Source: Intestinimonas massiliensis (ex Afouda et al. 2020) (GTDB lineage: Bacteria > Bacillota > Clostridia > Oscillospirales > Oscillospiraceae). Taken from it: a stretch of DNA of 64,000 nucleotides. The translations under genes and the position numbers were made by a program. A model generated the notes under the pieces. That model was not told the origin of the DNA, ran no database searches, and saw nothing but the letters and a program-made list of their open reading frames with translations. Numbering within the stretch: the stretch's first letter is position 1; each line of letters begins with the position of its first letter. This document shows, in pieces, positions 45,552-48,617 of this stretch. The DNA is taken from contig NZ_LN869529.1 in assembly GCF_001244995.1 (NCBI RefSeq), positions 255,454 through 319,453 on the forward strand. The letters run 5' to 3'.

Positions 45552-48500
45552 ATGCTCATTGCGGATCTGCATATCCACTCCAAGTATTCCCGGGCCACCA
45601 GCAAGGACTGCGGGCCGGAGGCCCTGGACCTGTGGGCCCGGAAGAAGGGCATTGGTCTGGTGGGTACCGGGGACTTTACCCACCCGGCCTGGCGGGCCGA
45701 GCTGCGGGAAAAGCTGCTCCCCGCCGGAGGGGGACTCTATACGCTGAAGGACGGGGGGACGGGCGGTCCGCCGGGGGCGGAGCCGCCCCGGTTCGTGGTC
45801 ACCGGAGAGATCAGCACCATTTACAAAAAAGACGGCAGGACCCGCAAGGTCCACAGCCTGATTCTGCTGCCCTCCCTGGAGGCCGCCGAGGACCTGTCCC
45901 ACCGGCTGGAGGCCATCGGCAATCTCCACTCCGACGGGCGGCCCATCCTGGGGCTGGACTGCCGGGATCTGCTGGAGATCACGCTGGAGTCCTGCCCCCA
46001 GGCGGTGTTCGTCCCCGCCCACATCTGGACGCCCCATTTTTCGGTGTTCGGAGCTTTTTCCGGATTCAGCACGCTGGAGGAGTGCTTCGGGGACCTGACG
46101 GGCCACATCCGCGCGCTGGAGACAGGCCTGTCCTCTGACCCGCCCATGAACGGGCGGCTGTCGGCTCTGGACGGCTATCGGCTCATCTCCAACTCCGACG
46201 CCCACTCCCCGTCCAAGCTGGGCCGGGAGGCCAATCTGCTGGACATCGAGCCCTCCTATTCCGCCCTGGCGGCGGCCATCCAGGAGGGGAAGGGGCTGGT
46301 CGGGACCCTGGAATTTTTTCCGGAGGAGGGAAAGTACCACTTTGACGGCCATCGGAACTGCCAGCAGTGCCTGAGCCCGGCGGAAACGGCGGCGGCGGGG
46401 GGCCGGTGCCCCGTCTGCGGCAGAAAGCTGACCATCGGGGTGCTCCACCGGGTGGAAGAGCTGGCCGACCGACCGGAGGGCGTTGTGAGGCCGGACGCAC
46501 CATACTTTGAAAGCCTGGTCCCCCTGCCCGAGGTCATTGCCGCCTCGGAGGGGTGCTCCGCCGCCTCCAAAAGGGTGGAGGCCAAGTATGAACGCCTGCT
46601 CCATGCGCTGGGGCCGGAGTTTTACATTTTGCGCCAGGCCCCTCTGGAGGACGTCGGCCGGACGGCGGGCCCCTGCGTGATGGAGGGCATTCGCCGCCTG
46701 CGGCAAGGGCGGGTGGAGCGGACCCCTGGCTACGACGGGACCTATGGCAAGATTCAGCTTCTGGACCCGGCGGAGCGGGAGGCCCTGAACGGACAGGTGA
46801 GCCTGTTTGGGGTGTCCCCGGCGGCGAAACGGCGGGGACTGGTGGCCGCCCCAAGCGCCGCCGCCGCGGAGAAACGCCCGGCGGCCGAGGAACCGGAAGG
46901 GGAGGCCGGTCCCCTGGCGGGGCTCAACGCCGAACAGCGCGCCGCCGTTCTGGACGAGAGCCGGGCCGTGGCGGTGGTGGCCGGGCCCGGCACCGGAAAG
47001 ACCAAGACGCTGGTGTCCCGCATCGCCTGGATGATCGGGCAGCGGGGCATCCGGCCTGCCGAGATCACCGCCGTCACCTTTACCAATCAGGCGGCGGGAG
47101 AGATGCGGGCCCGGCTGGAGCAGGAGCTGGGGAAGAGAGCCGTCCGGGGCCTCACCGTGGGCACCTTCCACGCCATTGCGCTGGATCTGCTGAGGCAGAG
47201 GCGAGAGCCGGTCCGACTGCTGGCCGAGCAGGACGCTCTGGCCGAGGCAGCGGGAGTACTGGAGGCCTTGGGGCACAAGGGCTCGCCGCGGAAGCTGCTC
47301 CAGGAGGTCTCCCGTCGGAAAACCGGCCTGAAGCTGGAAGGCGGCGGGGACGAGGCGGCCTGCACCGCCTATGCCGCCCGGCTGAAGGAGCTGGGTGCGT
47401 TGGATTTTGACGACCTGCTCCTGGCTGCCCTGGCGGCGGCGGAGGAGGGCGCGCCGGACCGGCGTTTCCGCCACCTGCTGGTGGACGAGTTCCAGGACAT
47501 CGACGGTCTGCAGCTCCGGCTGGTGGGGGCCTGGAACCGGGAGGGGGAGAGCCTCTTCGTCATCGGGGACCCGGATCAGTCCATCTACGGCTTTCGGGGC
47601 TCCGCCGCCAACTGCTTTGCCGCCCTGGCGGCGGAGTATCCCGGCCTGAGTACCGTCCGGCTGGTGCAGAATTACCGCTCCACCCCGGAGATCCTGGGCT
47701 GCGCCCTGCCGGTCATCGGCAAAAATCCCGGGCCCACCCGTAGGCTGGAGCCCAACCGGGCCCAGGGCGCCCGGCCTCTGCTGGTCACCGCCGACAGCGA
47801 GTGGAGCGAGGGTGCATTCATCGCCAAGGAGATCGGGCGTATGGTGGGGGGCGTGGACATGGTGGAGTCCGACCGCTGCGCGCCCCGGAGCGACCGGGAC
47901 AAGCCCTGGAGCTTCGGCGATATGGCGGTGCTCTACCGAACCCACCGGCAGGCTGAGCTGGTGGAACAGTGCCTGGCCCGGGAGGGCATCCCCTGCGTGG
48001 TCGCCGGCCGGGAGGATTTTTTGAGCCATCCCCGGGTGCGGGCGGCGCTGGACTTCTTCCGGCGGCTGATGGACGGCGGGGTCCGGGAGGGGGAGGAGGC
48101 CTGGGCAGCCCACTTTTTGCCCGGACTGGGGACCGAGAAGCCCCGACGGCTGCTGGAGGACTGGGCGGAGCGGTCGGGCTGCCGGGAGGAAGGCGCGGTG
48201 GAGAAGCTGCTCCACACCGCGGTATTCCACGCCACCATGGCCGAGCTACTCAATACCCTGACATTGGGCGAGGAGGGAGACGTGCGCCGCAGCGGCCGGC
48301 GCCGCTACGAGACCGGGGCGGTTACCCTGATGACCCTCCACGGTGCCAAGGGGCTGGAGTTCCCGGTGGTCTTTCTCTGCGGCATCCGTGAGGGGGTCCT
48401 CCCACTGGAGAGCAAAGGGCGGCCAAGCGATCCGGAGGAGGAGCGGCGGCTGTTTTACGTGGGCATGACCCGGGCCAGGGACGAGCTGATCCTGCTCACC

Positions 48501-48617
48501 GGCCGGGAACCCTCCCCCTTTCTGGCGGACATCCCGGCGGGCCGGGTCCGGAGGCTGGCCGCCAATGGCCGGCACAGGCCGGAGAACAGGCAGCTCAGCC
48601 TGTTCGACCTGCGGTAG
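45552..48617 (+). CDS. EndoQ-like PHP nuclease fused to UvrD-type helicase
   Basis: A 1021-residue fusion. Residues 1-420: PHP-fold nuclease of the EndoQ type, with DLHIHSKYS (His 7, His 9), GTGDFTHP, PAHIWTPHFSVFG, SNSDAHSPSKLG (Asp 216, His 218) and a four-Cys zinc site C270-x2-C273/C286-x2-C289. EndoQ nicks 5' to deaminated bases and abasic sites. Residues 470-1012: SF1A helicase with GPGTGKT (478-484), VDEFQDID (about 644), GDPDQSIYGFRG, QNYRST (706), TLHGAKGLEFPVVFL and FYVGMTRARDEL. Each half ends in a QxSLF motif (Q415-F419, Q1014-F1018) resembling beta-clamp binding sites. The helicase is shorter than PcrA/UvrD. Confidence 0.9.
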   Translation: MLIADLHIHSKYSRATSKDCGPEALDLWARKKGIGLVGTGDFTHPAWRAELREKLLPAGGGLYTLKDGGTGGPPGAEPPRFVVTGEISTIYKKDGRTRKVHSLILLPSLEAAEDLSHRLEAIGNLHSDGRPILGLDCRDLLEITLESCPQAVFVPAHIWTPHFSVFGAFSGFSTLEECFGDLTGHIRALETGLSSDPPMNGRLSALDGYRLISNSDAHSPSKLGREANLLDIEPSYSALAAAIQEGKGLVGTLEFFPEEGKYHFDGHRNCQQCLSPAETAAAGGRCPVCGRKLTIGVLHRVEELADRPEGVVRPDAPYFESLVPLPEVIAASEGCSAASKRVEAKYERLLHALGPEFYILRQAPLEDVGRTAGPCVMEGIRRLRQGRVERTPGYDGTYGKIQLLDPAEREALNGQVSLFGVSPAAKRRGLVAAPSAAAAEKRPAAEEPEGEAGPLAGLNAEQRAAVLDESRAVAVVAGPGTGKTKTLVSRIAWMIGQRGIRPAEITAVTFTNQAAGEMRARLEQELGKRAVRGLTVGTFHAIALDLLRQRREPVRLLAEQDALAEAAGVLEALGHKGSPRKLLQEVSRRKTGLKLEGGGDEAACTAYAARLKELGALDFDDLLLAALAAAEEGAPDRRFRHLLVDEFQDIDGLQLRLVGAWNREGESLFVIGDPDQSIYGFRGSAANCFAALAAEYPGLSTVRLVQNYRSTPEILGCALPVIGKNPGPTRRLEPNRAQGARPLLVTADSEWSEGAFIAKEIGRMVGGVDMVESDRCAPRSDRDKPWSFGDMAVLYRTHRQAELVEQCLAREGIPCVVAGREDFLSHPRVRAALDFFRRLMDGGVREGEEAWAAHFLPGLGTEKPRRLLEDWAERSGCREEGAVEKLLHTAVFHATMAELLNTLTLGEEGDVRRSGRRRYETGAVTLMTLHGAKGLEFPVVFLCGIREGVLPLESKGRPSDPEEERRLFYVGMTRARDELILLTGREPSPFLADIPAGRVRRLAANGRHRPENRQLSLFDLR

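Follow-up and report, generated by a model that had tools for sequence, protein, structure and literature searches.

An EndoQ-UvrD fusion gene

Within the 64,000-nucleotide stretch of Intestinimonas massiliensis DNA analyzed here (the window), one gene encodes a protein, P0001, in which an endonuclease Q (EndoQ)-like nuclease is followed by a superfamily 1 (SF1) helicase (Table 1). Its immediate neighbors are a ZIP transporter gene and a Firmicute fructose-bisphosphatase gene. The ATG start at 45552 agrees with the N-termini of orthologues (MxxADLHIHS), and internal stops are absent from the ORF. An AlphaFold model of the protein has a mean pLDDT of 87.5, with disordered stretches at residues 416-450 and 1007-1021; because its pTM is 0.59, the placement of the EndoQ half against the helicase half is not fixed. 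A Foldseek search with this model returned a UvrD match and a PfuEndoQ match within one chain. A preliminary description of the locus had placed both activities in a single polypeptide, and the two halves are indeed matched by sequence and by fold.

Table 1. Features of the fusion gene, with the Y-family polymerase loci of the same genome.
Feature	Position	Strand	Basis or remark
EndoQ-UvrD fusion gene	45552..48617	+	1021 aa plus stop; uninterrupted frame; architecture recurs in many genomes
EndoQ half, residues 1-405 (PHP, zinc, C-terminal regions)	45552..46766	+	PfuEndoQ alignment, TIGR00375, Foldseek
First PHP metal-ligand cluster, D5-H7-H9	45564..45578	+	conserved in 49/49; aligned with PfuEndoQ residues
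Zinc-site region, C270, C273, C286, C289	46359..46418	+	alignment of 49 fused proteins
Internal clamp-type motif QVSLF, residues 415-419	46794..46808	+	conservation; opens disordered stretch
Variable linker, residues 420-457	46809..46922	+	pLDDT <50 at 416-450; pairwise identity 0.13 at 420-455
UvrD/Rep-type SF1A helicase half, residues 458-986	46923..48509	+	Pfam; Foldseek; motif residues 49/49
Shortened 2B-equivalent region, about residues 841-908	48072..48275	+	spacing in alignments
C-terminal clamp-type motif QLSLF, residues 1014-1018 of 1021	48591..48605	+	conservation; disordered tail 1007-1021
Y-family polymerase loci	G000:C7:677647-678096, 524399-524845, 1023852-1024409		motifs QIDMF, QMDLF, QLDLF

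The nuclease half retains the EndoQ active site

Archaeal EndoQ nicks DNA on the 5' side of uracil, hypoxanthine or an AP site, and PCNA stimulates it through a C-terminal PIP box (PMC4357722, PMC4858679, PMC6202378); the nick leaves a 3'-OH (PMC4357722). Residues 4-405 of the window protein align with PfuEndoQ (5zb8) at an E value of 8e-45, and the modeled fold matches Pyrococcus EndoQ with a Foldseek TMt of 0.85-0.87 (rmsd 2.7-2.9). TIGR00375, a stricter NCBIfam model of EndoQ-like proteins, scores the half at 171 bits, below its curated cut-off of 326.6, which is passed by only 2/399 phylum genomes. All of the PfuEndoQ ligands (DLHxH, E76, H84, H139, E167, SDAH) have aligned counterparts, so that E86, H101, H157, E190, D216 and H218 join the first cluster as PHP metal ligands. 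Each of the 10 PHP-region residues checked is invariant in an alignment of 49 fused proteins, and the PHP assignment made in the preliminary description holds. The four-Cys zinc site described with it stands for the window protein, which has all four residues, but not for the group: C270, C286 and C289 are kept in 49/49, yet C273 is present in only 26/49 and is often Arg elsewhere.

The helicase half has a shortened 2B region

Over residues 458-982, Pfam reports UvrD-helicase (3e-53) and UvrD_C (1e-38), both over their cut-offs, and Foldseek aligns the half with UvrD (2is6, E 2e-40). The UvrD-type motifs recognized earlier in this half are borne out by 12 of 12 residues checked, each identical in the 49 aligned fused proteins; the range first given, 470-1012, is replaced by about 458-986. 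The pcrA equivalog scores 284 bits against a cut-off of 911, and no PcrA/UvrD/Rep equivalog cut-off is reached. The 2B-equivalent region occupies 86 residues between positions 838 and 924 in the window protein and mostly 120-150 in orthologues, as compared to about 160 for Rep 2B by alignment; the window protein therefore has no full-length 2B subdomain. Such a subdomain is typical of SF1A helicases but not required. In Rep and UvrD, 2B holds monomers in check, and the shorter region suggests that the motor could be more active as a monomer.

Two conserved clamp-type motifs

Both halves end in a short motif resembling the bacterial beta-clamp consensus, at the positions first reported. Among the 49 fused proteins of the Bacillota sample (window included), Q1014, L1017 and F1018 of the C-terminal motif are each kept in 48, and in the internal motif Q415 is kept in 44, L418 in 40 and F419 in 41. 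Mean pairwise identity is 0.53 for the internal and 0.74 for the C-terminal motif, as compared to 0.13 in the linker and 0.21 in the tail, where adjoining columns are nearly random. A strict motif (QxxhF) was scored in the last 25 residues of the 127 fused proteins with an intact end; 106/127 have it and 121/127 have a looser form, while it occurs in just 1.1% of other 25-aa windows. Column conservation, the difference between motif and flank, and this low background indicate that the motifs are conserved beyond chance, and a check among orthologues that could have refuted the earlier proposal did not do so. The strict C-terminal motif was found in none of 42 stand-alone EndoQs (0/32 canonical, 0/10 fused-type). 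Shiraishi et al. 2016 (PMC4858679) had already pointed out a C-terminal beta-clamp motif in bacterial EndoQ homologues; it was not seen in the canonical stand-alone Bacillota EndoQs sampled here.

Short motifs by themselves prove nothing about clamp binding. The idea is plausible because the window genome encodes DnaN and carries similar segments on its Y-family polymerases, which also indicates that this type of motif is normal for the organism. The three Y-family polymerase genes each have their clamp-type motif near the C-terminus (Table 1). In the AlphaFold model, the disordered stretches take in the last four residues of QVSLF and all of QLSLF.

The internal motif might instead cap the EndoQ domain structurally or be left over from the ancestral EndoQ C-terminus, leaving only the C-terminal motif to bind the clamp. 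We regard this as possible but doubtful. Conservation of the internal motif is the weaker of the two, and outside the Bacillota it is strict in only 9/20 proteins and fails even the loose form in another 9/20, often with the hydrophobic residues persisting; the C-terminal motif is strict in 13/20 of the same proteins, and most of the remainder are one change off. QVSLF also follows a helix (406-413). Against a purely structural role stand the high retention of its Gln in the Bacillota sample, its disordered, low-confidence context, and its position, which is like that of the archaeal PIP box.

Distribution and origin of the fusion

An EndoQ-half relative is present in 11/121 genomes of the window's family (window included), mostly in frames of >1000 aa, and most of these EndoQ-bearing genomes have the fusion order. 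In the phylum sample TIGR00375 matches 207/399 genomes, mostly through stand-alone proteins of ~400 aa. Fused-type EndoQ occurs in 60 of the 399, the window's included, and 49 of the non-window genomes also carry the helicase (one of these has an in-frame TAG, and a few were assigned from open-frame length or are truncated at contig ends). Among 80 loci recovered by scanning named genomes, 79 are fused in the frames obtained. Fused loci occur in Anaerotruncus, Neglectibacter, Pseudoflavonifractor, Enterocloster, Blautia, Moorella and Desulfonema, and in MAGs labeled Gemmatimonadota, Myxococcales, Desulfobacteraceae, Planctomycetota, Chloroflexota, Caldilineaceae, Elusimicrobia and others; individual MAG labels may be wrong, and the spread across phyla does not depend on any single bin. 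The domain order that the preliminary description proposed to look for in other genomes is thus widespread. No relatives were found in phages, plasmids or viral contigs.

A FastTree tree of 141 fused-type and 32 canonical stand-alone EndoQs (401 columns, archaeal EndoQ outgroup absent) places 0/32 canonical proteins among the fused-type sequences, with a separating branch of 2.15. Local support at the rooted node is 0.254, so the split between the two types rests on branch length and the lack of mixing. Ten stand-alone EndoQs of the fused type are nested within the fused clade, which fits a loss of the helicase. Identities of the EndoQ and helicase halves co-vary (Mantel r 0.91, 1176 pairs, 0/999 permutations), as expected for a long-standing fusion. 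A single origin of the fusion is the simplest reading of these sequence relationships.

Two kinds of variant locus were also observed. The relative in genome G160 (L134, minus strand) has an in-frame TAG between its EndoQ and helicase halves, after which the same frame continues; a pseudogene, an error or readthrough are options. In two genomes of one family (loci L114 and L116), the fused gene has a second fused-type EndoQ copy, without a helicase, no more than about 10 kb away, and an in-frame stop was reported in each of these second copies.

Gene context and uracil-DNA glycosylase

In nine Moorella-like loci (L072, L108, L111, L127, L128, L142, L143, L144 and L197) the fused gene lies directly after uvrB on the same strand; where the sequence extends that far, uvrA follows the fused gene in seven and uvrC in four. 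No conserved neighbors were found outside this uvr lineage. As a candidate conserved neighborhood, an ABC-transporter cluster present at 17 loci was dismissed as paralogue noise.

Uracil-DNA glycosylase (UDG, PF03167) is missing from 18/59 genomes with fused-type EndoQ as compared to 23/338 others (Fisher p 1.6e-6, spread over 13/25 families; phylogeny enters through family counts only, and some genomes are incomplete). Split by EndoQ class, the genomes without it number 18/59 for the fused type, 16/146 where only canonical EndoQ is present and 7/192 where there is neither; this count covers 205 of the 207 EndoQ genomes, leaving aside that of the window and one weak match at order level. Together, the uvr neighbors and the enrichment of UDG loss support a role in DNA repair. 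Replacement of UDG was rejected for the window's family, in which all 11 EndoQ-positive genomes have a UDG; because the window genome retains one, the fusion is not its sole uracil-repair enzyme. Overall, 41/399 phylum genomes lack any PF03167 UDG, and seven of the 41 also lack EndoQ. EndoV was found in 7/399 phylum genomes and not in the window genome, and a partnership of the fused protein with EndoV is not supported, since EndoV is almost absent from the phylum.

A candidate nick-and-unwind mechanism

The fused protein is probably a one-protein initiator of excision repair, recruited by the clamp to nick and unwind deaminated or abasic DNA. By analogy with its family, the EndoQ half would flip the damaged nucleotide, deaminated or abasic, outward and cut just 5' to it, leaving a 3'-OH. 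The nick would then give the helicase half its entry point; translocating along the intact strand in the 3'-to-5' direction, it would displace the strand with the lesion as a 5' flap, and resynthesis primed by the 3'-OH would follow behind. A motor of this polarity on the intact strand would lift the lesion-bearing strand off from its 5' end, in the same direction as synthesis, and this fits well with a clamp loaded at the 3'-OH. The two clamp-type motifs, both on flexible segments, would tether the two activities to DnaN and may occupy two protomers of one ring. Such tethering would direct the reaction to DNA that is primed or newly replicated, where the 3'-OH could be passed to a polymerase. 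Beyond domain identity and motif conservation, every step of this scheme is one that we infer. The pathway first suggested for the locus is supported in part: its domains, active sites, domain order and motifs hold, and the uvr neighbors and the link with UDG loss lend it independent backing.

The nuclease half may instead have changed its substrate, so that the clamp-tethered protein would nick and unwind DNA at mismatches, ribonucleotides or bulky lesions and stand nearer to mismatch or nucleotide excision repair than to the repair of deaminated bases. The substrate of fused-type EndoQ may differ because of the long branch that separates it from canonical EndoQ and its variable fourth zinc ligand; the TIGR00375 score under the cut-off, the adjoining uvr genes of one lineage, and the resemblance of clamp, nick and UvrD-like motor to mismatch repair point the same way. 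We nevertheless consider such a change unlikely, since the PHP ligands and the EndoQ fold are retained, enrichment in UDG-lacking genomes points to uracil, and the window genome has a full mutS1.

It is quite improbable that the halves act separately, with the fusion merely equalizing their amounts and the helicase serving as a generic PcrA/Rep-like motor. A flexible, variable linker, the low pTM and the several lineages that hold fused-type EndoQ without a helicase would fit such an arrangement, but the fusion has been kept across many phyla with co-varying halves, and the stand-alone derivatives also lack the C-terminal motif. A role as an antiphage or mobile-element nuclease-helicase is extremely improbable: the 25 PADLOC matches listed come through the UvrD-type helicase (GajB and similar) and include no EndoQ counterpart, the neighbors in the window are housekeeping genes, phages, plasmids and viral contigs yielded no relatives, and retention is clade-wide.

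Relation to known systems and significance

The clamp-recruited repair initiator that we favor combines parts of several known systems. With Endonuclease Q (Pyrococcus, Thermococcus, Methanosarcina, Bacillus pumilus; TIGR00375) the protein shares PHP ligands, fold and zinc region, and the clamp-type motif after its EndoQ core is the counterpart of the archaeal PIP box. It differs in belonging to a distinct long-branch clade (about 30% identity to PfuEndoQ, under the TIGR00375 cut-off), in its fused helicase and in the second motif at the new C-terminus. With UvrD, PcrA and Rep it shares the 1A, 1B and 2A motifs and the SF1A fold at about 28% identity, but it is far under their equivalog cut-offs and has a shortened 2B, an N-terminal nuclease and a clamp-type C-terminal tail. 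In mismatch repair the MutL nickase and UvrD carry out a clamp-guided nick-and-unwind reaction, and NucS/EndoMS is clamp-binding; the logic is similar, whereas the nuclease fold is different, the activities lie in a single polypeptide and the expected lesion is a modified base. AddAB, AdnAB and RecB also join a UvrD-type motor to a nuclease in one chain. Their nuclease is C-terminal, of RecB type, and acts on DNA ends, whereas that of the fused protein is N-terminal, of PHP type, and a predicted lesion nickase.

No description of an EndoQ-helicase fusion was found in the open-licence literature searched. The parts are known; their combination, its breadth and the two conserved clamp-type motifs appear undescribed in that literature. 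A 2015 model had an unnamed helicase remove the strand after a second cut by EndoV (PMC4357722). For the step after the EndoQ nick, the fusion offers a helicase in the same chain, in a phylum in which EndoV is rare (7/399), and its clamp-type motifs offer a putative route of recruitment for this nuclease-helicase. With the fusion, the pathway also becomes open to direct tests in bacteria, and the protein is a candidate uracil-repair route for Clostridia-like bacteria without UDG. More tentatively, many bacteria may possess a UDG-independent form of excision in which recognition of a deaminated base, incision next to it and strand removal are carried out by one clamp-riding polypeptide, coordinated in some lineages with UvrABC.
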